Shown: piece after piece, positions 22,565 through 61,523 of the stretch
Layout: every line of letters begins with the position of its first letter
Numbering within the stretch: the stretch's first letter is position 1
NCBI GenBank assembly: GCA_018902385.1
Contig: JABSSW010000010.1
Span: 844,573-908,572, forward strand
From: Physcia stellaris
Lineage: Eukaryota; Ascomycota; Lecanoromycetes; Caliciales; Physciaceae
Direction: 5' to 3'
Length of the DNA: 64,000 nt
Translations under genes and position numbers: made by a program
The notes under the pieces: model-generated
What the model was told of the DNA's origin: nothing
Database searches by the model: none
Seen by the model: only the letters and a program-made list of their open reading frames with translations

Positions 22565-23398
22565 AAGTAGAGATACTATCTTACCTTAAAAATTTTGAGA
22601 AGAGGAGAGAAGAAGGCATAGATATCCAACGTCAGCCGCCTATAAAGATAGCGTACACGTCCAGACAATGACTACGCCTCGATCAGAAGATAACTCAGAT
22701 GTTGACACGGGAAGTAGCATGGGCGCATCAAGTACTGAGAGCCGCTCCGGATACAGAGGCTTTGCCCCCAAATCCTTCGAATTGCGAATTTAGTATTGCT
22801 TTGCACACCAGCGTGGTGCATCCTCAAATATACTTACCTTTGTCAATGGAGCCGGCAGAATTAGGGTGCCGTAGGAATCCATATGCGTGTAAAGCGTATA
22901 AGTCCAATGTAGAAGCGAGGTTTCAAGAGCCGATTCTCACACTCGATTGACAGCGCATAATTCCAACTCTCTCGTTTACCCGCCCCTTTGCCTGAAGATT
23001 GAGGCTCTGCAGGAACGGAGGCTTGGATCTTCAGCCTGTGCAGCTCGCTTAAACACGGAGGAGCTTAGTATACTGCCGACAGAAGTGATCCAGATCCTAC
23101 GTTAAGGACTTCGCAGGATTCCAGTAATTGTGCTGCACCGCCCATGCCAAAGCATGACTCTTGCGGAGCGAAGTACGGCTAAAGCTTATGTTGCGGATGT
23201 GAACATCGCTTGCGCAGGTAGACTTCATCGTTGTTGGTTGTCTGTGGTTTAGCCTCCTTCGACCCAGGCGTCAAAATCTTGTACTCATAACCCGAAGCTT
23301 CGCTTCATAATGGCATTGCCCGAGTAAATTCGCATACTTATCCTCCCTCTACGTTCATGAAGACCCGTCCTATGTACGCCACAAGACGAGGCAAGAAT
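22565..23398. promoter_or_regulatory. Shared divergent upstream region of the chitinase and LysM genes
   Basis: The two start codons point away from each other across about 830 bp with no convincing gene between, so both promoters lie here. I could not pick out a specific transcription factor site with confidence. Shared control is an inference from the arrangement and from the known pairing of subgroup C chitinase genes with LysM genes in other ascomycetes. Confidence 0.5.
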
Positions 23399-25335
23399 AT
23401 GTCGATGTTCGTGGTGACTTGGTGGACGACGAACCTTCTATTAGCTACAGCCCAAAAATTTCAGAATACCACTTTCAGTGTCGACTTCCCAGGCGTTTCT
23501 TCGGACTGCATTGAAGCACTCAACGCTTCGTTGAGTTGCAGTGATACACTGGGCACGATCTCCAATTCTTTGAGCAGTGATATCTTAGGATCCGCCAGTC
23601 CACTGAATTTGACAACAAGTGACCTCAGCAACCTTTGTTCTCAACAGTGTCTGGAGTCGCTGCAGAACTCTCGGGAAGAAGTCGCCTCAGTCTGTACGGG
23701 CTCAGGGGATGTGATTGTCGATGATGGCAATACCTACCCTGCAACCTACGTTATAGATCAGCTACTGTATAGCTACAATCAAACATGCCAGAACGACGGG
23801 TATTGTATCACCGAGATTTGACTAAGGAGACTACAAGCTAATTCAACATCGACAACAGCTCAAACAACGGAACTTTTTGCGTCACAGAATTCCAATCATG
23901 GATGTCTTCTAACACAGCTCTGACGCAGGAAATGGAATGTTCCGACTGCATGCTCGGTAGCCAGGTGATTGAATTGAACTCACCCTTTGGTTATCAGTCG
24001 GATCTAGCTTCGAATTTCAGCGCATCAACATCCAGTTGTGGGAAAAGCGGATATTCCATCAACACGCCGGCTCCGTACGTTGTCAAAAGTAACCTGACGC
24101 CGTCAGCAACCGCAAATCCTACTGCGTCGGCAGTTGCTTTTCGTAATGCGTCTTCAACAACTCAAGGTTGCAACGACCCGTACACAGTCAAGGACGGCGA
24201 TACCTGTAACTCAATAGCCATTGCTCACAACGTCTCCACATTCTCGCTTCTTTACGAAAATAACCTACAGGCCTACTGTCAAAGCTTCCCTGCTTCGGGC
24301 TCGGACATTTGTCTTCCTGCTCAATGCGACATCTATACAGTCCAGGCAAATCAGACGTGCTGGGATGTCGTCCAAGCTCAAGCATCAGGAATCACTCTTA
24401 CTCAAATACAAGCGTGGAACAACAATGTGAACCTCTTATGCGGTAATTTGGATGACTTGGTTGGATCTCAAATATGCGTTAGGTGAGTGAAGATTCCTTC
24501 ATGGTACGGATGTCTTATGAGAGGAGTTGATCGTTGATCGCGTTGCAGTCCGCCAGGTGATTCCTTGGACACGGACACGCCAAGTGCTTCAGGCACAGCA
24601 GCAGCAATGCCAGCTCCGACCAATGCAGATCCCAGCACAAGCCGCGAATGTGGACAATGGTATATTGTTCAAGCTGGAGGTACCTGCGCGAGTATCACGA
24701 TCCAGCCTGGCATATCTCTTGACGATTTCTATTCTCTCAATCCTGATGTGAATCACAGTTGTACGAACCTAGAAAAAGACGTAGCATACTGCGTGAAACC
24801 GGTCGGTGCCATCGCTACATACGGCAATTATAGTGGAAGTGCAGCTGGTGCAGCGGCCACGGATCCTTGCAAAGCTGCTTTTGCAGCAACTTCGTGCTTC
24901 AAGGACATCCAGAGTCTTCCTTCAGTCTCATTTCTTGGTAGAAGTGCAACCTATTCACGAGGTGCACAAGCAAAAACGAGTGGCCAAGCTGCCGCAGCGT
25001 TGTCGTCCGCGATGATCACCAGTCCAGTCAAAACCACAGCTTCAAGTACGTCGTCAGCAGCAGCGGTTACTACCAAAGCCATAAGGTCCACCTCAAAACC
25101 CGCAATGTCGACTTCAAAGCCCGCAACGCCGGTCTCCTCCCCGGAGGCACCAACCCAAACTGGCATCACATCGGACTGCTCTGAGTATTATGTCACACAC
25201 AGTGACGATTCTTGCCAGCTAATCGAAGACACTTATGGCATCACATTCCAGCAATTCTACTCGTGGAATCCTGCTGTGGGGGATAACTGCCAGACGCTGT
25301 TCGTGGATTATAGATACTGCGTCAAAAGCCCTTGA
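23399..25335 (+). CDS. Secreted multi-LysM chitin-binding protein
   Basis: Three exons (23399-23799, 23859-24482, 24549-25335) join in frame to 603 aa. I start at the ATG at 23399 because it opens a signal peptide (MSMFVVTWWTTNLLLATAQ); an in-frame ATG at 23357 would add 14 basic residues. An N-terminal Cys-containing region of about 230 residues (ending near CSDCMLG and the glycosylated region after it) is common to this family. Four LysM modules follow: YTVKDGDTCNSIA, YTVQANQTCWDVV, YIVQAGGTCASIT and, after a Ser/Thr-rich linker, YVTHSDDSCQLIE. Each has the Asn-rich second half. LysM proteins bind chitin oligomers; they protect fungal walls, modulate self-chitinase activity or hide chitin from plants. 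There is no enzyme domain. The gene is divergent from the chitinase, with which it probably works. Confidence 0.9.
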
Positions 25336-25615
25336 CGCGATTGAAAGGCTGCTATCTATTGTTGGATGTTTCTTTTCGTTCTAAGTGCAACATCGATCCT
25401 TTTGTACGAAGCCAGATGGCAACAGCTGTATGGACGGCTCAATCTCCTCGATTGCCTTGGACCAACAGCACAGTCTAGGGTAAGGAGACATTTTTCATGG
25501 CCTACTCTGGCAGATAGACTAGTCGGAACAGAGAAGATTCCCAGAATGTAATTCCATGCGATAGAGTACTTTTCTCTATTGTCGTTGTGGACTTGGCTTC
25601 GGCGAGCAGCCACGT
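25336..25615. other. Short convergent intergenic region
   Basis: The 3' ends of the LysM gene (+) and the small fungal protein (-) face each other across 280 bp. Open frames here are short and featureless. Confidence 0.4.
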
Positions 25616-26253
25616 CTAGTATTTCCTGAAGGTGACACCTTGGCCCGGATACCATGTCGCCATTCCCTCATCCAGAGCCAAGACATAAAGTCGAGGTAGC
25701 GCATATGCCGTAACCTTCATCTCCCCAGTGTAAGTCTCATTGTCGTAGCTTTCGTCGGGACTGTATTTCCTATCCACAGCTTTTAGAAACGCTGGCGATC
25801 GGCGGGGTCCGTCTCTCTCATCTTCCTCGGGAGATCGGGCAAGGATCGACTTCATGGACTCGTCGTCTACGATTAGGCAAATTTCGTAACGCGTTCCGAA
25901 ACCCTCACTTTTGTGCCAACTATTGCAAAGGTCATTGAAGCGCCTAATCTAGTTAGAGTCAGGATCCAAGGCGGATGAAATTGGGGACAAGTCCAATTGT
26001 GCTATTACCTTCGAATTTCTTGAGTGTCGGCGCCTCCTAGCTCAACGCTCTCCTGCACCACCCAGTCAAGCTTCTCAAGAGCCTTTTCTCCGTGCTCTTC
26101 CCTCTTCAATGACCGTTCAACGTGCGTGCGTACGCGTGCGAAAGTTTTATTCCACGCATCGTCATCTCCGTAAGTGCATCGATAGATCACATAGCCCCAA
26201 TTGGGCTCGTGCATGCTATCGATCCATTGTAAGATTGCCGATGTGGTGGACAT
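25616..26253 (-). CDS. Conserved fungal hypothetical protein, two exons
   Basis: Exons 26253-26009 and 25943-25616 join in phase (AG plus G gives Arg) across a 65-bp intron with donor GTAATA, yielding 190 aa. The N-terminal half has the pattern WGYVIYRCTYGDDDAWNK, which I recognise from a lineage-expanded family of uncharacterised fungal proteins, followed by LDWVVQE and a YEICLIVDDESM block in exon 2. There is no signal peptide or membrane segment, so it is likely intracellular. It is the last intact gene before the AT-rich block, whose edge lies about 0.45 kb upstream of its start. Function unknown. Confidence 0.75.
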
Positions 26254-26740
26254 AGCAGAAGACGGATGTATCGGTGAATACGTCTTTTTGGTTAAGGTGA
26301 GGTCAACTAGGGAAACCGGTTGAAATGACGGTGTTACTATATGGTAGCTGTCGACAGTCGGGTGGTTTGGCGTCTAGGCGTACGAATGGAAGAGAAGCGT
26401 TACGGCATCATAGTCGTTGACAAGATCGCAACAACAGATGTTTTGTACCACTGATAAAGAGAATCGTCCGGGACACGGACGTTGTCGTAAAGGAGAGACG
26501 TCTTTGATGAGAAGCTTACAGCTCAACCGCTCTACGAAATACCTCGATCACCGTAAAAATTATCGACTTGACATATGTGACAAGTTTATAAAACGATTGA
26601 ACATTAAGCGCATGCAAAAACCGATCGCATTAGAAGAATCCACCCGGTAACCGGACAAACCCAGTAACCGGACAGCCTAGAGTTGGTCTCGTAGCTTGTC
26701 ACCCTAACCCTAAAAAAAGACTCTCGAAAACCCTAAATTG
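26254..26740. other. Transition zone between gene segment and AT-rich block
   Basis: Contains two copies of GTAACCGGACA (26647-26657 and 26664-26674), then the telomere-type CCCTAACCCTAA near 26,702-26,713 and a further ACCCTAA near 26,731. Beyond about 26,735 the sequence turns AT-rich at once. It could be the worn end of a DNA transposon, a repaired break or a former subtelomeric joint. No gene. Confidence 0.5.
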
Positions 26741-27374
26741 TCCGATTACTAAATTTGTTCGATTGTCGAATGAATTTTCCTATTTGATAAATAAACAAAC
26801 ATTACAAATAACATGATTAAAATATATTCAATTGAATTTGTGTTAATTTTGTGTTCGATCGCATACGCATGATCAAAAATATAATTAATTTCGATAAAAA
26901 AATCAACAAAAAAACAATATATGAACGAAACAAAATGTTATTTAATGCAAATATTTTGCATATGTAATCAACAAATTTACAAAACAAAATTGTAACAAAA
27001 TAACAACGTGTATGTATTTCGCATATGTTGACAATTAATTCGAAAATTTTAATGTTTTTTTTATAAAATTAAATTTTTATATATTTTTAACACGTAAACA
27101 ACGTAAATCAATTAATATAATAAAATAAATATCGAAACAACAAAATTATTATCAAATTGTCGACATAAATATAATATATATTTAACATGAATTAAATAAA
27201 AATTAAAACATTGACGAAATAATTGTGCAATGCTATACAGAAATATAATATTATTACATAATTACACGAGAATATCGAAATGAAAAACAAATACATGAAA
27301 ATCTGTAAAAACATATGTAAAAAATTTGATTTCTTGAATGCGTCAAGACGAATTTCGATTTTAACATTCGATGT

Positions 27375-27573
27375 TGTTAAAAATTTGCAAATTAATTTGT
27401 CGATTATAAGACGAAAATTTGTCTGACGATTGTTAATGACGAAATTTGAAATAAAAACGTGTTTGTTGTTAAAAAACAAATCATTTGTCACATAACATTA
27501 CAATATATATTTCGAAACTTTTTCGAAAAATTAACAATCAAGTTTTTTACATTTTTTCACACATTGTTTTTGA
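27375..27573 (+). repeat. Probable 5' LTR of the plus-strand gypsy element
   Basis: Aligns without gaps to 38884-39082 over 199 bp, starting TGTTAAAAATTTGC. By hand I count 12 differences, all transitions: five at CpT/ApG, five at CpA/TpG, two at CpG. The 3' limit is where identity stops. Confidence 0.6.
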
Positions 27574-29670
27574 CAATTTGATAATATCATTTATTCACAT
27601 CAACGTTGTTTGCATCATTAATTGTAACAACATTATCAAAATTTTGTCAATTTTGCAATGCATTGTACGCAAATTTGTCAATTTTTTGAATTTTATTTTT
27701 TGTCGTTTTCGTTTTTTTGATATCGTTGATGTTGTAAATTTTACGTCAATTTTATTCATTTGATTGTGAAAAATTTTTATTTTATTTTATTTTATTTTTC
27801 GTTTTATCAGTTTTTCATTATCAATTTGTGAAAGATTTTTTTTGTTTATTGTACGAATCAACAAAAATTTTTTCACAACAAATCATTTGTAATTCATTTC
27901 GACGTCAATTTTCAACGAAATCATTCAATTTTCGTGATTCGTTTATGATTTTTTGCAAATCAATCACGTTTTTTGTTCGTTATTCGACGATATTAATCGA
28001 CGTACGATGAAAATTTTGATTGCTAAAATTTTCAAAATTCTCAAAATTCGAATCAGCGATTTTGTTTATTTATTTCAATGAATCAACGACGTCGTTTCGT
28101 TTTAAAACGTTTTGATTTAATTTCGTTTTGATATCGAACGCTTTTGCAATTTGAACGTTTTTCGAAATTTTCTGATCAAATTTTCAACTGTAATCAATTC
28201 AAAATTCAGTGATTCGATTTTTTTTTCGATTTTTCGATTGTTCAAATTAAAAACGTCAATTTTGTCAATTTCATCAATATCGTTTGATGTTTTTTGTTTC
28301 AAAAAAAATTTGACGCAATAACGTGTCGAAAATTCAAATTTTTAATTTCACATTTTCGTTTGTAACATTCAATTATTTATTTATTATCACGTTAAACACG
28401 TCGATCGATTTTGCGTTTAATTTCAATTCTGTCAATATTCGCAATATTTAAATCGAAAAAATCATTTACACACAATTCATTGATTTTGTTATGTTTGATC
28501 AAAAACAAAATCAAAATCAATTTCATTCAATTATTCAAACAATCATTACAACAACGATTATTGCAATTGTTAATCAAACATTTGTCGATTTTACAGCAAA
28601 ATTTTAACGTTTGCAACAAAATAACGTCGAAAACAACAATGAACGTGATGATTGACGTTTTTTTAATTTGAACTTTTCGAATGAAATTGAAATCAACGTT
28701 GATGACGATAAATCAATTCTGAAAAATTCAAAAAATATCGATTTTTTTGATTTTCGTCGTGAAAATAACAAAAATAAAAATGTCATTGTTAACGTTGATC
28801 GACATATTTATTATTAAAATGTATTCGTTTTCATCGATCGATTTAAAAATTTGAAAAAAAATTCATTTGATCACAAAATGCGTAAATTTGTTGTCGAATG
28901 TTTACGCGATAATGTTTTCATTTGACATTTATTGAAATTCAATGAAATTGAAAAAAATATGTTTCGTGATGCATCAATAAATCAATGATGTCGTGATTTG
29001 ATTCGTCAATTCAAAAAACGTAATTCGTAAATTTTCAAAAATTTACAAACAAAAAAATATATCATGCAAAACGTTCGCAATGATAAAACGTTTAAAATTT
29101 ACGTGCAAAACGTTATACGTCATTTTAAAATCGTCGAATTTAATTTTATTTACAATCATCTAATTATAACGTGAAATAATTTGAATTTTAATTTCAAAAT
29201 GCAAATATTTGAATCAATTACGATTATCATTTTTATTTCATTTTTCGATTCATTTGACGTCAAAATTAATATTTGACAAAAAATGATTGTTCATAAATTT
29301 ATTTAACATGTCAATTTTAATTTTGATCAAAATAAACAACGTCAAATCAATAAACAAATTCGTAAACGACAAAACGATTGTCAATAACAATTTGACGTTG
29401 ACGATTTTCAATTTTTTTATTTTTCGTATGAATATTGATTATTATCAAATTACAATTCATATCAATATCAGAATTCGACGTTTCAAAATAATGTTTATTA
29501 AAAATATCAGAAATTTCAATATCAATTTTCAAACGTATTTCAAAAAACATTTGTCGTTTTTGTTTTATCAATTGACAAACAATTTTTGCAATTGAGTTTC
29601 GAAAACGCGTTAAATTTCAAATTCAAAAATCAATTACAACGTCGATTGACAAACAATATCGAACAAAATA

Positions 29671-30162
29671 ATGATGACGAATTTAACAATCGTGACGACA
29701 AAATTAAAATTTTTGTTGTCGATTAAAATAACAACGAAAAAAAAATTGCGAAAAATTTTCACAACAAAAAAACATGAAAATTATTATATTGAAAACGAAA
29801 ATTTGAATTATTACAATTCGAATCAAAAAAATAAATTATTCGTCAATTTGATTACGTCAATAATAATAATCAAATCGTCGTTATTTCATTGTCGTCGATA
29901 TAAAAAGATTTTCACATTTAACAACGAATTACATCGTTATTTTCGTGTTGATTGTAATTTGATTTTTTCAAAAAAATCGAAATTTTTTAACGACGTCGAA
30001 ATTTATTTTGTCAAAAATGTCAATTTATTTACAATCGATATTACGAAAAAATCAACGAATTTAATTAGTCGAATATCGTCACGTTTGTTAAATTTACGAT
30101 TTCATTTATTTCGTTTGAATTTATTATTATTCGTTTTAACGTCGATTTGTCAACAGATATGA
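29671..30162 (+). pseudogene. gag-region remnant with a zinc-finger-like segment
   Basis: A 163-codon frame rich in Asn, Lys and Ile. Near its middle is FHCRRYKKIFTFNNELHRYF, which reads as a mutated C2H2-type finger (the second Cys has become Tyr), of the kind I associate with gag-pol of some fungal gypsy elements. A related finger occurs in the nested element at 32.95 kb. The original ORF extended beyond this frame on both sides. Confidence 0.5.
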
Positions 30163-30437
30163 ACACGAAATAGAAATTTCGTGATTGAAATTACGTCAAA
30201 GTCAAAATATCATTAATCGTAATCGCGACGTCAAAAAATGTGTGTTTGAATATCGATGTTATCGTTTCATTTATGAATCGAAATTTTTTCAAAACACAAA
30301 CATTCAATATTTTTATTCGTATCATAATTTCGTTATTTCAAATTCGTGATTCAAACATTAATCGATATAAAAACTGAAAATATGTCATATATGATATTCA
30401 CATGTTTGACACAAAAAATAATTAAAAAATTACGTCG

Positions 30438-30866
30438 TTGTTCAAACGCGAAATTTATTTCGTTAACAATTTGAAAATCAACATGTTTTTAAACAATGAT
30501 ATTATTGAATTCGAAAATTTCGTTATCGACATGATTAAAAAACACGCAATGATAAATAATATCGACATAATTATATCATTGAAAATACGTTTTTTCAAAT
30601 TGACGTTTCAACGATTTGTTTATTTCAAAAAAATTACAATTATTTCGTCATATGTCGAAATAATCGTCGTCATTCATCATGTTGATTTGTCGATTACAAA
30701 AAATTTCTTGTTTGAATCGAATGATAATTTCAATTTTATTTTGTATGCACATTTCGTTGACGCGTTTACGAAATCTATTGTTGTACGCAACGATAAAAAA
30801 TTTTCAATCATGATTTTTAAAAATTTTCGATTAAACAAAATATTTGAAATTGATTTTTTTCAATAA
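30438..30866 (+). pseudogene. gypsy protease-like segment
   Basis: A 142-codon frame whose order of motifs fits the retropepsin-like part of fungal gypsy polyproteins: FVNNLKINMFLNNDII (a relic of the LxGxD region), MIKKHAMI, and later LYAHFVDAFTKSIVVRN before an FRLNKIFEID block. All expected glycines are replaced, as for the rest of the block. Confidence 0.5.
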
Positions 30867-31699
30867 TTTTTATATCGATATCGACGACGAAAATGTCAAA
30901 AATTTCGTCGTTAAAAAATCAAAATTCATTCATCAAAATGATTAATTCAAAAAATTCATTTTCGTTTACGTTTTGATTTACGTCGTCGTCGTTGCAATCG
31001 ATAATAATTTTTCGATTATATTTATTACGTCATCGTCGTTAATCATTTTGTCACAAATTTTGATGTCAATTGTTAAATTGAGAAAAATTTTTACAATCAA
31101 AATCGATGATAACAATTTCGAAAATTTTTTTACAAACGTTTTTATTTCGTTGATCGAAATCGTTTTGTTTAACGACGTCATCGTTTATAATTTCGACGAA
31201 TTAAATTCATTCGTCAAAATTGTTGAAAAGTTTTTGACGTTTTGACAAAATATCGATTTTGTCGAAATGTCGAAAAAAAATTGAATGAAAAAATCATTGA
31301 AAAATGACTGAAAAAAACGTGTAACAAAAAAAACAAAAATGTATTTTTTGAATGCAAAAAACAAAAAATTGATAAACAAAATTTTCGACGATTTGCATCG
31401 CATTGATCGAATGTTTTAAATTAATTAATCAACGTTATTTTTTTATTTTTGCTTTTGCGTTTGAAAAAACGTTGACGACGAGAAAAAAAATCGTGTAATT
31501 ATAAACATCAAAAATATCAATGTCATAACACAATTTGACGCATATTCGTTATTATTGCAAACAAATATTATAATCGTAATGCGAAATTGCGATTACATAT
31601 CAATCATTGATTGTTCAATTTTTTTATTAATAACAAATTTATTCAAATGATCGATACAAATTTATTGTTATTAATCACAAAAATAAAAAAAAATTCAAC

Positions 31700-32053
31700 G
31701 TGATTGTCATGAATTACAAAAATTTATCGACGTACGTGCAACGTCAAATTGATCGATTGTTTTGCGAATATCGTCATTTTGTCAAAATTTACGTGAACGA
31801 TATCGTTGTATTTTTTCGCACGAAAATCGAACACGAAATTGATTTGCGCAAAATATTTTCAATATTAAACAAAAATAACATTTCGATCAAATTTATCAAA
31901 TTTTCTTTGAATTATTCATCAATTTCATTTTTCGATCAAAAAATTGATTTATTCGATTTAATCACGTTCGAAAAAAAACTTAAAACAATTGTCAAATTTC
32001 GATTTTTTCGCATTTTTCGACAATTCGAAACGTATTTTGATTTGATTGACTAA
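31700..32053 (+). pseudogene. Reverse transcriptase remnant of the plus-strand gypsy element
   Basis: Contains YVQRQIDRLFCEYRHFVKIY followed by VNDIVVF, where the catalytic YVDD box reads YVND (GGAC to GAAC, a GpG-context change). It continues HEIDLRKIFSILNKNNISIK, matching the palm/thumb region of Ty3/gypsy reverse transcriptases. The frame ends at a stop where a Trp codon is expected, about 10 bp before the nested element's target duplication. Confidence 0.75.
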
Positions 32054-32071
32054 TTACGTGATTATATTATT

Positions 32072-32267
32072 TGTTGAAAAGTACAGTCTTCGCAGAAAGA
32101 TAACCAAGAAGTCAATTGATATAATTTGACGAAAGAAAGACTAATGCGTTCTTGTTGAGACTAGCGCCTTGACACTCGCACACTTTTTGTGTTTTCACTT
32201 CATGTATGTTACAAGAACAACGAAATTCAGAGCAATAGAATGATAATCACCCATGATTCTTTCAATA
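32072..32267 (+). repeat. 5' LTR of the nested element
   Basis: 196 bp, TGTTGA to TCAATA, the same length as the 3' copy. It differs from it at 20 positions, all transitions and all at CpT/ApG or CpC/GpG. Interior sequence AGTTATGAAAATCG follows directly as the likely primer-binding area, which I cannot match to a tRNA. Confidence 0.9.
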
Positions 32268-32848
32268 AGTTATGAAAATCGAGTTAACAACTTTCGCTAC
32301 ATCTAATATCAGCTACAGCAGCATGACAGCGCATGTCAAAGCAAATAATAATTAATCGCACGCAATACAGCAATGTACACGCAACAATAATCAACTCAAT
32401 GAAGTATTCAATCTAATCAAATCAGAACGATCTAATTGCATCGAGCAATACTCAGTATCTTGATACAAGCATTCAGTACTATTCAGTACACTCTCAATTA
32501 CATCGATAACATCTATCTATCTATTTACGAATCCTTCGAAACAGTCAGCTTTCGAATTTCTTACGAATTCGTCATTTATCTATTTTACGATATCGAATCT
32601 ATCTTGCGAATTCGTTTACATATTACTCAATCAAAATGACGACTTCTATTTCTGCGAGTTTCGCATCAATCATCTCCGAATTCGCATCTGATTTTCTTTC
32701 TTGATCATCTCTTTTTTGCACTTGCATTTTTCCGAATGAATCAATAACGTATGATTTTCGATTTTTGTACGAACAACATCAAAAAAATCAAATCAGTCAA
32801 AAATGCGTCTGATTCATTCAAGTCAAAAAAATACAAGAAAGATATCTT

Positions 32849-33274
32849 GTGCGTAAGCACGAGTTGCAAATGAAGAACAAAATTAAGCAAAAAGCGAAAA
32901 AATTATTGAAACAACAGAAAGAAGCTCGTCTGATCAAGAAACGAACAGAAAAATATACGTGCAAGCGTTGCAAGCATTCGACCAAATTCGATAGCAACAT
33001 CAAGCTTCACGAGCATATTCGTATTCGGCATGCGAAAAAGTCGAAACAATCTGTTCAGCAATTTGTTGTTTCATCTGCTTTCGAATCGAAATTTTCTATT
33101 TCTTCTTTTTCGTCATCTCGATCGATAATCTTCTCAGTGCTCACGTCATCGAAATTTCCATCTCTCTCGATGTTCACATCAGAAATTGTACGCGAGCGTT
33201 CAGAGAGCACATTTTCTTTCGAAAACGCGTCAAAATTCTTGTCGATTGCAACATCACGAAAATCGATATTTTGA
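32849..33274 (+). pseudogene. C2H2 zinc-finger frame of the nested element
   Basis: A Lys/Gln-rich basic stretch (KNKIKQKAKKLLKQQKEAR) precedes a C2H2 finger: YTCKRCKHSTKFDSNIKLH, then EHIRIRH. A Ser/Phe-rich tail follows. The likely ATG (32803) is in another frame, and further fragments in other frames (to about 33,815, including CRHCQE) look like the continuation, so the ORF is broken. Such fingers occur in non-autonomous fungal LTR elements and may bind element nucleic acid, though that role is inferred. Comparable to the finger-like segment in the host element's gag. Confidence 0.6.
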
Positions 33275-34299
33275 ACAGAAATTGCCTCACGATCAATCGT
33301 TGCATCGAAGTTCTCTCGTCTCTCGATTGCGACACTCAAATCGGTGTGCAAATTCTCGAAGAATGCAAACGTTGTTTGTTCGTCTACTTCGTCTCGAATC
33401 TCTACATCATCGAGATTTTATCTCATCGTGAACGATTTGTTCCGCATGTTCGCTGAAAAGCCGAATTCATTTGACTTGCAACGACATCAAATGCGCTCGT
33501 TTTCTTCGCGCGACTTTGACAAATGCAATTTCGCAAACAAATGTGATTTCATACAAAGTCGCATTACGTCATACTTTTCATGCGATGATTTCATCTGCTT
33601 CGAAATCGATCAAATCCGAAGCATTTGCATCTACACATGTTCGCGAAAGTCTTTCGCGTCAATTTTCGATCTTTTCACGATCGATCTCATCTATTTCGTT
33701 TTTCTTTCGATTCTTTATAATCTCTCGCTCATTTTCTGTTTGCAGACATTGTCAAGAGCGTTCTGTCATCTATCGATCTATCGATTGAATCATGCCAAAT
33801 GTCTTCAAAGTTGAAAACAATGAGATATTCATGAGACAGCGCTATTGAAATTTCGCTCCTTTTCGTTTTACTTTGAAGGAGTATTGACTCCTCCTCGAGA
33901 GAATCACTACTTTGAGAAAGTTAACATGTTGTTTGTTTGTTGTTTTGCTCGCTTCTCGTCTCTATTAATCGTTGATCGATCGTGATCTGAAAAAACATAA
34001 AAGTTGTTGTTGTTTTAATGAATTCGATATTTCGTTTTTTTCGTTCTGTGATCTGAGAAAGCTAATTGTTGTATATTTTGTTTGTTTTGTTTCATTAATG
34101 TAAAAATGATTTATTTTCGATTGTGTTTGTTGTTTCGTCTTGATTTAACACGACTGATAATCGTTTCTATTCTTTATTATTTTTGAGACTTCAGTCGCTC
34201 GATAAATACGAAAAGAAAAAAGCGAGTACAGTCGTTAGAACGAACGAGCACAGTCGAGAGCAATACAATTTCCGAAAAATGTACTAATCAAGACGATTA

Positions 34300-34410
34300 C
34301 ATTCGCAGATAGTATCGCTTCGAGAAAGCGTATTATGAAGTCATTACATACTCGATGAAATCACATAGTATCGCTTCGAGAGAGCGTATTATGCAATCAT
34401 TACATTTCGA
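34300..34410 (+). repeat. Short tandem duplication inside the nested element
   Basis: A unit of about 53 bp containing AGTATCGCTTCGAGA and GCGTATTATG occurs twice in a row (about 34,313 and 34,366), with a few transitions between copies. Confidence 0.7.
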
Positions 34411-35009
34411 TTTTGCAAAGCAAAAACTCGATCAAGAAAAACAAATAGTGCTGAAAATATCTGATCTTTTCGCATACTAATCGACCTGATTCTCTGGCAA
34501 GTTTTGATCAGATCAGAAAAGCTCGATTCTGCATTCTTTGCATCGATGTATGTTCGCAATGCATGTCGCGCATTCGATGCACTTTCTTTCTTATCGATTT
34601 CTCGATTATCTGGCATATCTTATGAACTTTTTACAGTCAAATTGCATAGGTATCGACTCATTGATGTCGCAAGAAATATCTGAAAACTCTGAGATTCACA
34701 ATGATGCTATCAAATCATGATGTGATTCGCACTCTCGTCAATATCGCAAAATTCAAACAATTGATATTTGCTTCATGATGTATTTTTTATTCAATTCTAG
34801 ATATCGAATCTCATATCGATCCTTATCACATGAAGAAACGCAAAACGTTTTCAGTCACTCGATCGCACGTCTTACAAATCGATCTTACGTCATATCTGAA
34901 GTCAATAAGTCATGAAATCTCGATTCGTTCGTTTCTGCAATCTTCGCATCGATGCATGATCTCGATCAAAACATATCACGTTGAAAAAGCTTGTTCGAAA
35001 ACTTCAAGC

Positions 35010-35130
35010 AACGCATCGCTGAGAGAGTCACATCGCTGAAAGAGTCACATCGCTAAAAGAGCTTCAGAACTCATCGCTTTGAGAGAGCTTTAGATATCAG
35101 AATTTACATCGCTGAAAAAGCTTGCACGAA
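35010..35130 (+). repeat. Short tandem repeats near the nested element's 3' end
   Basis: Units of about 17 bp built on CATCGCTGAGAGAGTCA recur four to six times with transitions (CATCGCTGAAAGAG, CATCGCTAAAAGAG). They lie just before the 3' LTR. Confidence 0.65.
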
Positions 35131-35191
35131 AGCTTCAGACTGAGCTCGTTAAAATACTGAGCAGAAGACACAGACGAATGCTGTGAAAAAG

Positions 35192-35387
35192 TGTTGAGAA
35201 ATACAATCTTCGCAAAAAGATAATCAAGAAACCAGTTGATATAACTTGACGAAAAAAGAATTAATGCGTTTTTGTTGAAATTAGCGTCTTGACACTCGCA
35301 CACTTTTTGTGTTTTCACTTCATGTATGTTACAAGAACAACGAGATTCAGAGCAATAGAATGATAGTCACTCATGATTCTTTCAATA
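35192..35387 (+). repeat. 3' LTR of the nested element
   Basis: 196 bp, gapless partner of 32072-32267, followed by the TTATT target duplication. Of the 20 differences, some show the mutated base here and others in the 5' LTR, so both copies were hit independently. Confidence 0.9.
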
Positions 35388-35440
35388 TTATTCAGTATAT
35401 TGACATTTTCAAATCATTATAAAACAAAAAAACGAAATTT

Positions 35441-35722
35441 TTGCGTGACGAATTTATTGCAAAAAATGTTAAACGCGTTTATTTTTCGAAAACACGCGTA
35501 CAACATTTTACAACAAAAAAATTAATTTTATTCGATGTTTTGCAAATCGTTTTGACAAATTTTTTTTATTTAATATATTCGAATTTCAAACGTCAATTAT
35601 TCATCGATTTGAATAGTAACAAAAAATTTGATTTCGATATTATGTTGTATTATGTCAAGAAAACTTTTCACGAATCAAACAAATATTTTTTTCGTCACGT
35701 TATAAAGTCGATAATTTTTTAA
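35441..35722 (+). pseudogene. RNase H-region remnant of the plus-strand gypsy element
   Basis: Contains YFSKTRVQHFTTKKLILF and then KRQLFIDLNSNKKFDFDIML, matching the connection and start of the RNase H domain of fungal gypsy pol (the family has a D-S-K/E-F-G-F pattern; Gly is Asp here). It continues the reverse transcriptase frame broken by the nested element. Confidence 0.68.
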
Positions 35723-36209
35723 ATCGATTATTTATCGATGTCGAAACAAAATATTAATTTATTGAATTCGAAATTGCAAACAAAACATATTGTTGAAATT
35801 TCGTCAAACAAAACAATCATTTATATTAATTATGATTTTGCATTCGACATTGTTAATTAAATCACGATGACAACAATTTCGATCGACAAATTCAATTTAC
35901 GTTTTGTTCGTGTTTTAAATTACATTTAACGTTTCAATTTCGATATTTGACATAAATCAAACAAACAACACATTTTTTTGATGTTTTGTTACGTTTAATC
36001 AACGACAATATCAACGCGTCAATGATCAAAAACTTTAATGAAAATGAATTTAATATTTTGTTCACAATTTCATTAATCGAAATGAAAAAAGATTTTCGCA
36101 ATCGAATATTCGAAAATTACAAAACAAATTTAAATTGACAAAAAATCAATCAAATATTGAATGTTGACGACGAAAACGTCGCAAAATTGTTTTTCTATAA
36201 AAAAATGAT

Positions 36210-36437
36210 TTGATTTTTCGTTCAAATAATTTTATTATCGATAATTATGTTTACGAATCGCGTCGTTTTTGCATTTTTTATTTCGTTGTATTAAATATTT
36301 TGCGATTGATTTATAACAATGAACATGTCGATTACGTCAAATGTTTCGAAAAAATGTTCGTTTCATATTATATTCGCGATTTGTTTTGTTATTTGCATGA
36401 TTATTTGAAATATTGTTCGAAATATCAAATGTATTAA
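36210..36437 (+). pseudogene. Integrase zinc-binding (HHCC) remnant
   Basis: Reads NEHVDYVKCFEKMFVSYYIR, then LHDYLKYCSKYQMY. This fits the gypsy integrase HHCC domain ending in CxxC, where the last Cys has become Tyr. The integrase core follows to about 37.0 kb in several broken frames. Confidence 0.65.
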
Positions 36438-37108
36438 ATTTAAAAACACGCATCGTATGATTCATTACAATTTATATTAATTTCGTCGATTTCATTTCAT
36501 ACAATCATCATTGATTTTATTTTAATTTTATTTGTTTTTCGTGACGAATTGAATATTACGATATTTGTTATTTGCAAATTCACGAAACGATTTACGTTTA
36601 TTGTCGACAAAAAATTTTGATTTGTCGTTGCATGAAAAATCGCGTTAATCGACAAATTAAATATTGTTGATTAAAATATATCGAAAATTATAATTTCGAA
36701 TCGAAATCGCAAATTTCTGTTTGATATGTAAATAACAATTTTCAAACAATTCGAAATTCGTTTGTTTTATTCAATTGTATATCATTTTCAAATTGACGAT
36801 CAATTCGAACGAATTAATTAAATCATTAAAATTGTTTTTCGATTTTATTTGACGATAATAAAAAATTCAATTGAATAATTTGAAATATTGTTCAAATTGC
36901 AACGTCATTTTAACATTTTTCATTTTGTCATTATTCACAAAACATTCAATGAAACGTTTTACGAATTTATTTCGTTGCAATTTTTGAACATGTTTTGTTA
37001 ATTCGTTACATTTGATTTCATCGACGATTTGAAATTTTTTTTGCAATTGACAATCGAAAATTTTTCGCAAAAATTTCTTTCAATGCAATTATTCGTGTTC
37101 GTTTTAAA

Positions 37109-37342
37109 ATGATTGACGTCATTGTATTCGTTCAAATAATCAACAAATATTATTATGATCGCAAACATCAATATTTATTTATAAAAATTGACAATTATGT
37201 ATTGATTAAATTGCATCATGATTACAACATATCGACAATTGAAATTTTCGATAAAAAATTAAATCGACAATATATCGATTTTTTCAAAGTTTTTGAAAAA
37301 ATTGACAATTTGACATATCGATTGAAATTTTCGAATTATTGA
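37109..37342 (+). pseudogene. Integrase C-terminal remnant
   Basis: Contains YYYDRKHQYLFIKIDNYVLI, LHHDYNI, and FFKVFEKIDNLTYRLKF. It matches the post-core segment of fungal gypsy integrases (K-x-G-D-x-V pattern with Gly lost, then R-L-x-L-P). A stop follows at the expected P-x-x-W-R position. Confidence 0.68.
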
Positions 37343-37415
37343 CGTATACATTTTGTTTTATTTATAATTCAACAAGCAAATTCGAATTTTTTAAAAAGAA
37401 TTACTTTCGAAAAAT

Positions 37416-37778
37416 TCGAAGAATTGACAACAACATAATTTTTCAAGTCACATAATTATTGCGATAATGAATCGATTTTCGTTATTGTTGCAACGTTGAA
37501 TTGCGTTAATTTTATTCTACAATTTTGAATAAATAAATTAAAATAATACGTTGTTGTTGATTGCGATGCAAAATGTGCAACAATTACACGAACGCAAAAA
37601 TTTTGATGATTGAACGAAAAAAATTTGATAATTTATCGCATTGAAAATTTGAATTTTCAATTAATGAAAATTATCGAATTTAAAAAATACGAACACAAAA
37701 TTGATCAAAATTTTTTTCGATCGATCATTCGCGTTAAGCGATTTTAATGAACATTTTTTTATAGATTTTGTTTTATTG
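37416..37778 (+). repeat. Dispersed repeat R, copy 1
   Basis: About 360 bp after the integrase end. It contains TATTGCGATAATGAATCG, and later GCAAAATGTGCAACAATT. A direct copy begins about 954 bp downstream, and weaker copies occur near 44.2, 45.6 and 45.95 kb in the same orientation. Confidence 0.65.
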
Positions 37779-38369
37779 AAATTTGTTTTTTCATTAATAA
37801 ACGATTTTTTCAATCGTTCGCGTTCAAATCAATTAAATTTTGTTTTCGTTGAAAAAAACACGAATCGAATCAAATCATGAAAAATTGAAAAATTTATTAA
37901 CAAACGTCAAATCAAACGTCGAGACGATGAATATTTTGTCAAATAAAAAATTTGAAAATCACAATACGATGAATGACGAAATTTATCAAAATTCGACGAC
38001 GTTTAAAACTTTGTACAAAATTACGAAAACGTTTTACGTTTTACGATTTTTTTGTCAAATCGTTTGCAAAAGTTTTTCGTCATTTCGTCAATCAAAATTG
38101 TCATTTCGTCAAAGTTTTTCGATTTTAAAAAGTTTTTCGCAATCATTTCATTGATTAAAGATTTTTTTACAATTATTTTTTCAATGTTAACGTTTGTCAA
38201 TCAATCATTAACAAATCAACGATTCGCGATTGTCATTTCACGTAAATCGAACACGATATTTTCGTTAATTTTTAACATCGAAACATTTGTTTTGATTCGA
38301 AAATCAATTACAATCGAATTGATTATATTTTCAACAAAAAAATTCGAAATTTTTTTAAAAAAAATTTTC

Positions 38370-38731
38370 TCGAAGATTGACAACAATGTAATTTTTCAAG
38401 TCACATAACTATTGCGATAATAAATCGATTTTCGTTGTTGTTGCAACGTTGAATTGCATTAATTTTGTTTTACAACTTTGAATAAATAAATTAAAATAAT
38501 ACGTTGTTGTTGATTGCGATGCAAAATGTGCAACAATTGCACGAACGCAAAAATTTTGATGATTGAACGAAAAGAATTTGATAATTTATCGCATTGAAAA
38601 TTTGAATTTTCAATTGATAAAAGTTATCGACTTTAAATAATTCGAACGCAAAATTGATCAAAATGTTTTTCGATCGATTATTCGTCATTAAGCGAATATA
38701 TTGAACATTTTTTTATAAATAATGTTTTATT
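38370..38731 (+). repeat. Dispersed repeat R, copy 2
   Basis: Direct copy of 37416-37778 with transitions in mixed contexts and small indels. The two R copies bracket about 590 bp of broken frames inside the 3' part of the gypsy element. Confidence 0.65.
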
Positions 38732-38883
38732 ACGTCATTCATCGTTGCAATTGATATTTTGATACGACAATTTCATCGATTTCAATGATTAAAAAAAAAC
38801 TAAAAATATCAACACGAATATTGTTTGACATGATTAGAAAACATGATATCGAAACGATATCGTTTATTTTGATTGAAATAGAT

Positions 38884-39082
38884 TGTTAAAAATTTGCAAA
38901 TTAATTTGTTGATTATAAGACGAAAATTTGTTTGACGATTGTTAATGACGAAATTTGAAATGAAAACGTATTTGTCGTTGAAAAACAAATTATTTGTCAC
39001 ATAGCATTACAATATATATTTCGAAATTTTTTCGAAAAATTAACAATCAAATTTTTTACATTTTTTCATACATTGTTCTTGA
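38884..39082 (+). repeat. Probable 3' LTR of the plus-strand gypsy element
   Basis: Gapless 199-bp partner of 27375-27573. No convincing polypurine tract precedes it and no matching target duplication follows, so the LTR call rests on the pairing and on the gag-pol order between the copies. Confidence 0.58.
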
Positions 39083-40581
39083 TCAAAATGATAAAATAAC
39101 GATATTAATTCGATATTAATTTTGTCAAATGTTGAATTCGATATACGTTCGTTACATTATTTTTCGTTTTTTTTCAATTTCGTTTCGAAACGATCAATTG
39201 AATTTTTTTTTAACGACAAACGTTTTGCGTAATTTAAAATGCGTTGTTAAATGACGTTGAATTAAATGATTAATAAAATGAAAATGTAAATGAAAAATGT
39301 TGTGAAATCGATTTCGTTCGCGAAATCGATTTGTCAAAATATGTGAAATTATAAAATCGATTTACGATAAAATGAACAATTTGATTATATTAATAAAATT
39401 ATCGTAACAATGTTTAACGCATTGATATTTTCGCGTATACGAAAATCTGTGTATACATTGCATACGACAAAACACGAATATAATGAATATTTTGAAAAAA
39501 TAATCAATTTATACAATTCGTAAAAAATAATTTCGACGAACATTAATAAACAAACAATTGTGAACTCAATTTAACATGTTAATAATTTTAAAATTTTTTG
39601 CAACATCAAATTGATATTACGAAACGAACAATTTGATCGTGTCGACAAAATTTTTGTTATTAAAATTAACGCGTCGATATTATCGCATATACGACAATTA
39701 ATTCGTATATTGTATTCAACGAAATATGCATATATTAAATTTTTTGAAAAACAAATATTTTGAACAAATTTTACAAATAATTTCGCGTGTCATTAATAAA
39801 CAATTGAAAATTTTGTTGACGAATTTGTAAATATTCGAATTTTTTGACAATTTGTTGTTTATTCATATCATTGCATAACATGTTTTTTACATTATTTATT
39901 GTTCAATAAAATTTGACGACAATTTTTGAAAATATTTTTGACACGATTTAACTTTTCATGCGACGTAAATTTTGATCGTAAATAACGCAAAATAACATGA
40001 AAACAAAAAATCGAAACAAAAATTATTTGAATCAATTTGACAATGAATTGTAACGAATTTTTGTTAACGTTTTTTGATCGATTATAAACGATATTTATAA
40101 TTTAATTATTTCGTAAAACAAATTTCGTTATTTTTGAATTAATTTCGTGAAAAACATTCACGATGTTTTAAACATTTTGAAATTCGTCATCGTCGATATA
40201 ATATCAAATTCGATTATAAAAATTTCAATTCGATTATTTGCAACGATATTGAAAACGATAATAATAATATCGAAATTGCAATATATTATCGAATTTTTAT
40301 TCAAACATTTAATTCGCGATAATTGATTTTGAAAAATCGTTATGTTGTTTTTTCAACGAATTTTTAATTTTTTTTAACAATCAAAAATCAAAAATTGAAT
40401 GAATGTGCATATCGTCGAACAATTTCAATTTATAAACGAAAGTTTTTTTCTTGATTATTTTGTATAAATTCAATTTTTTGTTATCGAATTTGTTTGACGA
40501 ATGAATCGTTTTTATATAACGACGATTCAATTAAACATAATTTTTTATTTCAAAATTTATTGAAAAACGAAATTTGTTAAT

Positions 40582-43500
40582 TCAAACAATTATTTTTCGT
40601 TTTGTATCGACAACATTGATTTTGACGTATTCGATAATACGATTTTTTTTTTCGACAATGAATTTGTTTTGTTTAATCAACAAACGTTTTTTAATGATTT
40701 CGTAATCATTTAAATTTGATTCAAAAATCATTCGAAAATGATAATTTTTATTTAAAAAAAATGAAATAAACTCGATGATTATTAAAACATCGTTGTTGTT
40801 AACGAATTTCATGATATTTATTCAATCAATTTAATCGTTTTGACGATAATTGCAATACAAACGCAATCGAATTTCGATATTTTGATTCGTTTGTTTCATT
40901 TGATTATCGATTTCAAATTGAAAAACAATAAACAATATATATTTAATTTTTAATCGTTTACAGAAAATTTTTTAAACGCGATTAACGAATTGATCATCTC
41001 GATTTGAAATAATGAAAAAAAAATTCATAAATACGAAATACGTAATGTAACAATATTTTAACACAAATTTGAATTGTTAAATTATTGTCATCGATCACAC
41101 AAAAAACGTAATAACGATTTTTGATTAAACGATCGATAATAATACAAATAACATTGTTAATTTTGAAATCAAATAATTCAATTATGAAATTTATCGATAT
41201 ATCAATTTATCGTTGATTAAAAATCGACAATGAAATGAACAATTCGTGACGATTATCGTGTGAAAATTTCGATTGTTAACATTTGTGACAATTACGAATA
41301 AAACGTTTGATAAATAATTTTATATTAAATCAATAATAATAACGTTTAATGAATTTTTCAATACGATTCATGTTCGAATATGCACAAAAAAATTGATCGT
41401 GAACGTCACGAATTATTTTCATCATAAAATTTAATTGATTTGATATTCATAAATTTTCGTTTTTAAAAAAAATTTCGTTTCGATCGAAACAATTTTGCAA
41501 ATTTATTTTTTTGTTAATAATTTGTTTATCGATCAAAATTTGACGATAATTAATACAATTTTCGTTTTTTCGATTGATTTGTATGACGCGTTCGTACAAA
41601 TCGTTTTAAACGTCAATCGAATATAATTGCAATCGAAAAAATGACAACAAAATTTGTTTTTTATAAAATTCACGTTCGTCGTTTTCGACGAAACGAAATT
41701 CAAACATTTTAATCAAAATATTCGTTTTGACGTTTTTGATTTCGAATTGATATTGAATTTTAATATTGTAATTCGTTAAAATTTCGATTTAACGTATTTG
41801 ACGAAAAATGAATTTTTTGTTTATTATAAAAATTTTCAAATTTTTGTAATCGATATAAATTTCGATTAATTCGTCAATATTTTCGAATTCGAATTTTCAA
41901 TATTTCAAACATCGAATAATAATCAAAAAATTTTTATTATATATTTCGTAATTGCATTCGACAAAAATCATTTTTTTGTTAAAAAAAATTATCGAATGAA
42001 AAATTTCGTCGTCGTCGTATTGAAATAAAAAAAATAAATCAAAAAATTTCATTTAAAATCAAATAATGAAAAATAAATTTGAAAAATCGATTTTCAAAAT
42101 AAAATTTTACGATTGCGATCGTAATGTCGAAAAATTAAAATTTCGATTATTTGTTTTTTCAAAATTTCGAATGTTTCGTTAACGAAATCGATTTATTCGA
42201 AATCAATTTTTTTTAATCATTCGAATTAAAAATTTGATTAATTTCGAAAACGTTTTAATAAAACGTCGATAAAAATTGCAAAAATTCATAAACGTTTGCA
42301 TTTTTTTGATGTATGTTGAACGAATTCAATTGACGATGTTTTGAATATTTTTGAAATTTATACATAAATTTTTTGTCGATAATATGATTTTTGAAAATGA
42401 AATTTTTGTTTGAAAAAATTCGCATTTTTTGATATCGATTTGAAAATCAATTTTTTTCAATTTTTAAAAAATTTGAATAAAATGTCGTTCATGTTGTTTT
42501 CGAATTTTATTATAAATGAAAATATCATTCAAATACATTTGACAAAAATGATTAATATATTCAAATAACAAATTATTTATGTAATGTTGTCAATTGATCG
42601 AATTATTGATAAAATCGAAAAACAACATATAATATTTGTAAATGTTTAACGAACATATAAAAATAATAAAATTTTCGTTTTGTGAATTCATTCGAAATTT
42701 ATTGAAAATCGATATAATATTCAATTTGAACAAAAATTTACAATCGATAATTTTAACAAAAAAAATTTCGATCAACGAAATATAATAATTATTTCGCTTG
42801 ATTATAACGTTCAATTTTTGATAATTTACATACAAACGAAATTGTTCGTTCGATTTGACGACAAATAAAATAAATAAAACATAAAATGTTTTGTTTGAAT
42901 TGATAAATTTTTTGAAAATTATCGTGAAAATCATTTTAAAAAATCTCGAATTTTTTAAACGATAAAAAATAAATTAAATTTCGAAATAATTGATTCGAAT
43001 TTTTCGTCAATTTCGATTTTATGATCGTAAAATTTATAAAAAAACAATTTGTCGATTTTTTCGAATTGAATACATTTTCGAATTGTTTAAAAAATTCAAA
43101 AATTTTACGTTTTAATTTTTCGACGATTGTTTTTATGATTTTAAAATTTTTCTTGAAATTCAAATCAAAATCAATTTTTATTTTGATTAATTTTTTTTGA
43201 CGTTGTCAATAATTTCGTTCAATTTTTTCATAATCAACAAAAATATTTTGATTTTTTTTTAAAATTTCGTTAACGATTGAAAAATCATCGCGTTAATAAA
43301 AACGACATTTAACGATACATCAAAATCGAAATTTTGTTCGTTATTTTCAATTTCGAAAATTGTAATTTTGAATCGTCGATTAAATCGACGCGTAAATTTT
43401 TTAATTATGTTAAATTTTTTTATTAAAACGTTGATTAAATTCGATTTTTGAATTTCGCGTATGATTTTTGTTTTTCGTTCTTTTTTGAAAAATTTATTTA

Positions 43501-44038
43501 AAAAATAATTTTTGTTTATTTTTTTAATGACATATTTGAAATTTGAATTCAAATTTTTTTTATTGATTATTCATTTTTTTTCGAGTTTTTTACAATAAAA
43601 CGAAAAAAATTATTCGAGAAAATGTCGAAATTGATCGTTTTTGAAATATTTGATATTTTTGAACATTTGTCGACGAAAACGACGTCAAAAATCGTTTCGA
43701 CGATAACAAATAAAACGTTTTATTCGATTGTTTGTTCGAATTAAACAATTTTTGAAATATAAACAAACGTGATAACAAAAAAAACTTTAACGTGATCACA
43801 ATGATTTGAAATAAAATAACATTCGTCGTTAATCATATTGAAAATCATTTTGTGTTTGTTTATTCAAGATTTTTTTAAAATCAACGAATGTTATTTTATT
43901 TTGATGACAAATAAATTCGAAATTTTTTTTAAAAAAAACTTTGTCGAGATTTTTCAAAATTAAAATCAAATTTGATAAAATTGCGAAATCGTTTCGCATT
44001 TGTTTTGCGATTTTATCGATTTCGTATCTTAATAACAT
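40582..44038 (-). mobile_element. Second degenerate Ty3/gypsy element, minus strand
   Basis: Minus-strand fragments follow gypsy order. At 43829-44038 is a gag-like segment. At 42936-43163 lies FFKQFENVFNSKKSTNCFF, then LYPLS-like RNLIYFLSFKK, the linker before reverse transcriptase. At 42590-42934 reverse transcriptase reads FRLYVNYQKLNVIIKRNNYY, KLNIISIFNKFRM and YYMLFFDFINN (relics of RLCVDYRxLN and MPFGLxN). At 40582-40812 integrase core reads FISFFLNKNYHFRM, like the SPFxxxYGxxPR pattern. No LTRs were identified and the limits are uncertain. All glycines and prolines of these motifs are lost. Confidence 0.65.
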
Positions 44039-44219
44039 TTTGATTCAATAAATAAACTATACATTCGAAAATTTGTTTTGAAATACGAAATGAACATTAT
44101 TCAAAAAATCAAAAACATCGAAAATCGAACGAATATGCATTGAATTATCATGAATATCGCATAATTGTTTTGCAAACGTTGTTGAAAAATTGTTTTACAA
44201 ATATATTTTTAACATGATT

Positions 44220-44420
44220 TTTCAAATTTCAAAACTATTGCGATAATGAAACGATTTTTGTTATTTTGACAACGTTAAAATACGTTCATTTTGATTTACA
44301 TTTTTGATCAAATAAATGAAAATCATATTTGATTGTTGATTGATGTACAAATTGCAAATCAATTGCAACGACAAATTACATTTTTGATGATTGATCGTCA
44401 AATTGATTTTGAATTAATCA
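44220..44420 (+). repeat. Dispersed repeat R, diverged copy 3
   Basis: Shares CTATTGCGATAATGAA and a following GTTGATTG-rich segment with the copies at 37.4 and 38.4 kb. Confidence 0.5.
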
Positions 44421-45130
44421 AATCGAAAAAAAATGTCGCAAATTTGAAATAATTTGAAAAATTTCAATAATGTTAAACATGAAATTTGAATTGCAAAAAT
44501 TGCAATCATTTAAACACATTTTCGAAACATATTATGATTTTCGTTTGAATATAACGCAATAAAATTGCAAAATATATTTGTTTTGATATCGATCATTTTG
44601 AATATTATGTACATATGTTGATTTCTAGAAATTGCAATATGATTTTTTTTTCGCAAATTTTCAACAACGTTAATAAATTGAAATTATTTAATTGTTTTCG
44701 TTCAAAACGAAAATAAAAAACGATAATATTGATCAAATACGAACGTATTCTGTTCAAAAAAATCGAATTGATTGAAAACGTTTTCAATAATTTCGATTCA
44801 TACACGAATGATTTTTTGAAAAAATCGATCATGATTCATTTTTTGCGTTTTTTGAAACGTTTTAAAAATATTCAATTCGAATCATTTTGCATTTTTTTGT
44901 TGTTTTTTGATTCGATTTCAATAATCGCTCGATAATATTCGATTTGAAAACGAATTGCAATTTCAATTTTTTCGTCGTCGATATCGTGAAAAATCTGTTT
45001 ATAAAATTCATCGCAATATTTTGAATTGACGATGATTTTGAATAAATTTTTTTTTAATGATATTGTATCGAGTTTTGAAAATTCGATCGAAATTTATGAA
45101 TTTGAAAACATCAAAAATTGTATAAATCAA

Positions 45131-45478
45131 TCATGCAATTTTTGCAAATTTAATTTCAATTTGAACGTGTTCAATCAATCGTTTCGTTCGATTTTTTAAT
45201 TTTTCATTCAATGAAAAAACATCGAAAATGAAACGTCGAATTGAATAAATTATATTTTTGACGAAATCGAACAAATTGTCGATATATTGTTCGACATTAT
45301 GTTCGATAAAAAATTGTTTGTTGATTGAAATATTCATTTTTCGAACAAATGATTTCAATCGTCGATAAAAAATATATCGAATGCGAAAATCGAACAGTTG
45401 TTTTTGTTGTTTTTTGCGCGTTTTTCGTTTTTTCGCGTGTTTAAAAATTTGTTTTCGCGAATAAACATTGATACACAA
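45131..45478 (-). pseudogene. Unidentified repeat-derived frame
   Basis: 115 codons, with a very basic start (KHAKKRKTRKKQQKQ) and later Ile/Phe/Asn-rich text. It has the same Gly-, Pro- and Trp-free composition as the decayed elements. It may be gag of the minus-strand gypsy element or part of an unrelated repeat; not identified. Confidence 0.3.
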
Positions 45479-45525
45479 ATCGAAATCGAAAAAATCTTTT
45501 ATAACGAACGTGCAAATGTTGAAAA

Positions 45526-45565
45526 AATAAATAAATAAAATAAATAAATAAATAAATAAATAAAC
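45526..45565. repeat. AAAT microsatellite
   Basis: About ten AAAT units with one irregular unit. Confidence 0.85.
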
Positions 45566-61509: not shown

Positions 61510-61523
61510 AAAAAAAAAAGAAA

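Follow-up and report, generated by a model that had tools for sequence, protein, structure and literature searches.

The window analysed here is a stretch of 64,000 nucleotides from the genome of Physcia stellaris, a lichen-forming ascomycete (Physciaceae, Caliciales, Lecanoromycetes). It comprises a gene-rich half and an AT-rich block, and the block contains a partly mutated element bounded by two long terminal repeats (LTRs). The LTRs of this element, and aligned genomic copies of them, carry C-to-T changes on both strands that are concentrated at cytosines followed by a pyrimidine (CpY), more so at CpC than at CpT, and are nearly absent from CpA and CpG. The features that carry this result are the following:

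1..26500, no strand: gene-rich half used as control, CpC and CpT normal
26751..64000, no strand: AT-rich block, CpC nearly gone, CpA and CpG kept
32067..32071, no strand: left copy of the target-site duplication TTATT, 5 bp
32072..35387, plus strand: partly mutated LTR element, 3,316 bp, with CpC at 0.13 and CpT at 0.89 of expectation
32072..32267, plus strand: 5′ LTR, 196 bp, TG...TA
35192..35387, plus strand: 3′ LTR, 196 bp, with 20 transitions compared with the 5′ LTR
35388..35392, no strand: right copy of the target-site duplication TTATT, 5 bp

In an ungapped alignment the two LTRs differed at 20 of 196 sites, and all differences were transitions. The 5-bp duplication TTATT is present on either side, and therefore both LTRs stem from a single insertion and their differences arose after it. 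Sorted by the 3′ neighbour, 15 changes were at CpT, 4 at CpC and 1 at a site whose neighbour is itself C or T depending on the copy. No change was found at a cytosine followed by a purine (CpR; CpA 0/30, CpG 0/12), and the difference between CpY (20/34 changed) and CpR (0/42) was highly significant (Fisher P = 1.3e-9). Both strands were affected (8 C/T, 12 G/A), as were both copies (13 and 7). An initial annotation, made from the letters alone, had described the LTR pair with exact coordinates, length and gapless difference count, had taken the differences as a record of mutation after insertion, and had listed transitions only, on both copies and both strands and none at CpA or CpG; all of this was verified. 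Its split into 15 CpT and 5 CpC sites was right for CpT, while CpC is reduced to 4, the fifth site being the one with the variable neighbour. A further correction is that per available site CpC, and not CpT, is the most mutable; the split is CpT-heavy because few CpC sites are left in the pair (4 versus 28 CpT).

The LTR family was then sampled genome-wide: 247 first-look candidates were found, 40 were scored, and 30 copies were fetched and aligned. The assembly analysed comprises 43.97 Mb in 147 contigs, compared with 46.57 Mb in 184 scaffolds for the published P. stellaris assembly (excerpts of PMC7513301), so that some contigs may be missing. Columns with fewer than 3 C or less than 90% C+T were left out of the tally, as were 88 cells in 3 columns whose neighbour was unclear. 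The share of T was 544/684 (79.5%) at CpC and 445/835 (53.3%) at CpT, and it was only 29/828 (3.5%) at CpA and 14/358 (3.9%) at CpG. Minor alleles were transitions in 561 and transversions in 50 of 5,864 cells. Mutation levels varied among the copies, from nearly none to saturation; the mutated fraction of CpC exceeded that of CpT in 30/30, and the CpA and CpG fractions remained at 0-0.17. As had been argued in the initial annotation, neither the CpA-directed repeat-induced point mutation (RIP) of the Neurospora type nor CpG deamination fits these numbers; deamination of methylated CpG was rejected because CpG is retained. Two outcomes that had been named as speaking against an unusual preference, namely CpA hit as often as CpT and CpC or common transversions, were looked for in the 30 copies, and neither was found.

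Ten within-element LTR pairs could be formed from the 30 copies, and 5 sites with an unclear neighbour were left out of their counts. Changes were found at 35/51 CpC, 87/198 CpT and 18/22 sites with a variable pyrimidine neighbour, versus 17/286 CpA and 4/114 CpG; 10 transversions were seen, 5 of them in one pair, and both C/T and G/A changes were present in 10/10 pairs. The LTRs were relied on because the alignment of the internal part was poor (11 copies of 1.3 kb, 1,848 columns, 59-89% identity). In the 12 least-mutated LTRs the 5′ base and the +2 base had weaker effects than the +1 base, yet not nil, e.g., 18/48 for CpCpC versus 66/119 for CpCpT. A second repeat family (42400..43600, no strand) served as an independent test; after 282 first-look candidates and 40 scored copies six loci were read, and CpC was absent in 6/6.

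The same preference was evident in the base composition. In 27001-64000 without the element (33.7 kb) a single CC/GG was found, at position 52015, compared with 3,064 in the gene-rich part 1-26000. As fractions of expectation, the AT-rich parts had 0.00 of CpC, 0.06-0.09 of CpT, 1.34-1.38 of CpA and 3.8 of CpG. The mutated block begins abruptly, within about 250 bp: counted on both strands, CpC falls from 23 in the 250-bp interval starting at 26501 to 1 in the next, starting at 26751. The wider sample consisted of 30 stretches (55 kb) chosen at round coordinates, blind to content, and cut into 110 tiles of 500 bp each. Of these, the 16 with <30% GC contained 1 CpC, 159 CpT, 970 CpA and 1,016 CpG, 5 tiles with 30-42% GC were intermediate (127 CpC), and 89 tiles with >=42% GC were normal. 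The pattern and its order occur on many contigs, and the depletion check that had been proposed earlier revealed loss of CpC and CpT and retention of CpA and CpG in AT-rich DNA. The following features bear on whether mutated DNA is repeated:

28000..28999, no strand: AT-rich tile of the copy-number test, repeated
50000..50999, no strand: AT-rich tile of the copy-number test, repeated
18000-18999, no strand: gene-rich tile of the copy-number test, matches itself only
57111-57521, minus strand: Plavaka-like transposase fragment (Pfam E 7e-8), frame open within CpC-free DNA

Mutated stretches were repeated in 4/4 cases tested (the two AT-rich tiles and the two element families), and the unmutated gene-rich tile was single-copy (1/1). 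This repeat linkage agrees with repeat-directed mutation, in a small sample and not an exhaustive scan. The Plavaka-like fragment, because it sits within CpC-free DNA, is evidence that DNA-transposon-like sequence was mutated too.

The genome holds a DIM-2-like gene, a canonical RID gene (RIDb) and a divergent second RID gene (RIDa), and no damage is visible in these candidates; the search for RID/Masc1 and DIM-2 genes suggested earlier gave two RID genes and a DIM-2-like candidate. RIDa (contig C6, 508 aa as spliced here) has a C5-methylase domain, in which PCQ and E(E/Q)T motifs are present, and groups with RIDs. It lacks the usual AHT catalytic loop after PCQ and has PPCQSFSPAQSRKPVDFEDKQ at this position, and the Heterodermia protein has PPCQSFSPAQVVKPEDFEDKQ; a remodelled loop is common to the relatives of RIDa. 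The AHT loop is common and not defining in RIDs (His 147/211, Gln 33/211). RIDb (contig C5) is an open reading frame annotated as a 932-aa protein, groups with RIDs of other Lecanoromycetes and retains the AHT loop of most RIDs examined. The part of the DIM-2-like gene (L002) that was read, which lies downstream of the 5′ end, matched PF00145 and DUF7893 above cut-off and BAH weakly, below cut-off. An extra short RID-like protein was seen in several Teloschistales lichens (P0045, P0062, P0066, P0223, P0239, P0248). Because these proteins form a clade of their own, RIDs appear to have been duplicated more than once in Lecanoromycetes.

With a probability of about 0.86, the repeats of P. stellaris are mutated by a RIP-type, CpY-directed process; a RIP-like system of unusual dinucleotide preference had also been the initial reading, and the 30-LTR tally agrees with it. 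On either strand, this process would turn cytosines that precede a pyrimidine into T, those at CpC before those at CpT, and would leave CpA and CpG nearly exempt. The mutator would be a RID- or DIM-2-type C5-cytosine methyltransferase, because a 3′-base preference that is nearly blind to the 5′ base fits such an enzyme, and it would act in the sexual cycle. The divergent RID/DIM-type methyltransferase that had been envisaged has a counterpart in RIDa, the leading candidate enzyme, whose role as mutator is unproven and for which the odds seem only slightly below even. RIDa might set the CpY preference via its remodelled loop after PCQ. The more detailed proposal, that a RID paralogue of the Physciaceae switched the RIP target from CpA to CpC/CpT via this loop and that transposons are inactivated mainly by missense changes, is tentative and stands somewhat further below even odds. 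If it is true, transposons lose their function mostly through the loss of Pro and Gly codons instead of through stop codons. The process is filed here as a new RIP variant that works like RIP; the two traits that define RIP, timing in the sexual cycle and dependence on RID, are presumed.

Several observations weigh against this interpretation. The 5′ base matters somewhat, as in the 12 least-mutated LTRs CpT was changed in 5/60 cases after T versus 19/95 after A. CpG was hit more often than CpA in the same LTRs (13/168 versus 3/307), and it was less exempt in the poorer 11-copy internal alignment (CpC 0.593, CpT 0.451, CpG 0.183, CpA 0.087). A round of RIP on a single strand could leave clusters, and no same-strand clustering was found in the 11 internal copies (P 0.28-0.89). 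In saturated copies of the second family (L035-L040) CpA leaked, with single-copy changes at 70/229 CpA versus 33/278 CpG, about 2.6 times more often at CpA; possibly this is a second, slower activity, perhaps of RIDb or DIM-2. RIP-like timing and repeat-sensing are presumed, and the attribution to an enzyme rests on sequence divergence, with both kinds of data from one species, P. stellaris, and the gene only from Heterodermia.

Other sources of the changes have to be considered. The mutator could be DIM-2 instead of a RID, or the changes could come from slow deamination of cytosines that DIM-2 has methylated in heterochromatin; the genome has a DIM-2-like gene with the methyltransferase domain and a weak match to BAH, and Neurospora DIM-2 is described in excerpts of a 2026 review as producing mainly non-CG methylation with a CpT preference (PMC13297926). 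The same source has DIM-2 methylating all CpN contexts, whereas CpC was ahead of CpT in 30/30 copies and CpA and CpG were nearly untouched in the LTRs, which makes this explanation unlikely. It is slightly less likely still that the canonical RIDb itself changed its preference and that RIDa is a bystander: RIDb is open, is annotated with 932 aa and clusters with other Lecanoromycetes RIDs, but it has kept the AHT catalytic loop of most RIDs. Two other lichens, Cladonia metacorallifera and Gyalolechia flavorubescens, also speak against a change in RIDb. Both are RIP-positive by CpA-type indices in excerpts of PMC7882544, a comparison that does not extend to their RIDs.

Ultraviolet (UV) damage, APOBEC-like editing and a base-calling artefact were considered and rejected. 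CpC and CpT are dipyrimidines, at which UV would cause C-to-T changes in a sun-exposed lichen, but TpC before a purine was spared (TCA 9/208 in 7 columns, TCG 0/30 in one column), ACC (159/210) and GCC (114/147) were mutated, and damage would not end at the gene-rich border, so that UV is extremely improbable. An APOBEC-like deamination of retroelement cDNA would explain why retroelements are mutated; it has next to no probability given that both strands are mutated, that the context is 3′ and not 5′, that the Plavaka-like DNA transposon fragment lies within a CpC-free block, and that strand-asymmetric changes limited to retroelements were not seen. A search with APOBEC_N gave no match, but neither did its controls, and hence it is uninformative. 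That sequencing or base-calling misread methylated cytosine is suggested by the Nanopore reads of the published assembly, for which about 30x Illumina coverage was also used (excerpts of PMC7513301). With CpC almost intact in LTR copies L026 and L021 and loss of Gly and Pro also in public metagenome proteins, the chance of such an artefact is negligible.

A RIP-type process directed at CpY shares several traits with the RIP of N. crassa and most Pezizomycotina: C:G to T:A changes that affect repeats on both strands, AT-rich blocks next to normal genes, and the presence of RID and DIM-2-like genes. The order differs. It is CpA>CpT>CpG>CpC in N. crassa, and in T. reesei CpA~CpG are followed by CpT>CpC (excerpts of PMC5496416), whereas it is CpC>CpT>>CpA,CpG in P. 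stellaris. A strong CpT share in RIP is already known. In Botrytis, Sclerotinia and Magnaporthe, where the species studied have RID homologues, RIP combines CpT and CpA, CpT being ahead of CpA in two of these (PMC4352252); CpT outweighs CpA in Tad1 copies of one N. crassa genome according to the authors of RIPCAL (PMC2621366), predominates in the aligned elements of control genomes capable of RIP (PMC7882544), and is a strong component in Anisogramma (PMC10998396), all as stated in excerpts of these papers. CpT is likewise a main target in P. stellaris, but unlike in the cases of PMC4352252, PMC2621366 and PMC10998396, in which CpA is also hit, CpA is spared and CpC leads. Basidiomycetes exhibit CpG and TpCpG hypermutation (excerpts of PMC4014442 and PMC2621366), which has the C-to-T bias and, in the Microbotryum Ty1 case, the link to repeats in common with P. 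stellaris, where, unlike in CpG-directed hypermutation, CpG is kept at gene-like levels. In Rhizoctonia solani AG8, CpC is the densest CpN class of single-nucleotide polymorphisms by raw spacing (214 bp), uncorrected for site number (excerpt of PMC4014442). In Ascobolus immersus, methylation induced premeiotically (MIP) methylates without mutating, unlike the process in P. stellaris, and Masc1 gives its name to the RID subfamily (excerpts of PMC13297926); RIDa is short (508 aa as spliced here), like the non-extended RIDs.

A CpC-led, CpA-sparing preference was not reported in the open-access literature searched. A related case could be contained in the survey of ascomycete RIP that Clutterbuck published in 2011. 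We know of no account of how RID picks its target cytosine. Purified RID had no detectable activity in vitro according to excerpts of the 2026 review (PMC13297926), and the term "repeat-induced" has 0 occurrences in the main text of the P. stellaris assembly paper as far as it was available (PMC7513301). A RIP-type system of reverse preference, together with a RID paralogue whose presumed DNA-contacting loop is altered, would make target choice by RID testable in Neurospora by gene replacement and loop exchange.

The coding consequences of CpY conversion were analysed in 19 stop-to-stop frames of the gene-rich half (4,432 codons), not all of which need be genes. Full conversion created 0 stops at CpT, 72 at CpC and 271 at CpA; stops of the CpC type arise only from Trp, TGG to TGA. 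Because CpY conversion creates few stops, decayed frames tend to stay open, and they may be mis-annotated as genes. In 27001-64000, including the element, the 32 frames of >=100 aa (4,339 residues) contained 0.05% Gly, 0.09% Pro and 0% Trp, compared with 7.0% Gly, 6.1% Pro and 1.7% Trp in 51 frames of the gene-rich half. One such frame lies just upstream of the element:

31634..32053, plus strand: decayed reverse-transcriptase-like frame, still open (Pfam RVT_1 E 6e-4, below cut-off)

Its 24 public protein relatives (3,885 residues) had 1 Gly, 2 Pro and 32 Trp, in a word-based search that favours look-alikes. These relatives are evidence that DNA of this kind is also present in other public data, while its spread among species is not readable from them. 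No relatives were found in viral contigs, where the scan gave 20 pattern stretches. RIPper-type thresholds (product 1.1, substrate 0.75, composite above 0; excerpt of PMC6714961) were reached in 0/127 scoring windows, and in 0/68 of those with GC <30%. TpA/ApT was 0.43-0.50 in the AT-rich DNA, and the TpA enrichment expected of CpA-type RIP was absent; indices based on TpA/CpA can miss such DNA.

No reverse transcriptase match was found in the two frames of the LTR element that were searched, and the element may be non-autonomous. Its internal frame 32813-33274 (plus strand) contains a C2H2-finger-like stretch by eye, with no Pfam match over cut-off. Across the family, 28/30 LTR copies end in TA, the usual end being CA, and 28/30 start with TG. 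In the gene-rich half, frames resembling secreted chitin-binding/chitinase-like and LysM-like proteins were recognized by eye at 21607-25335 of the window.
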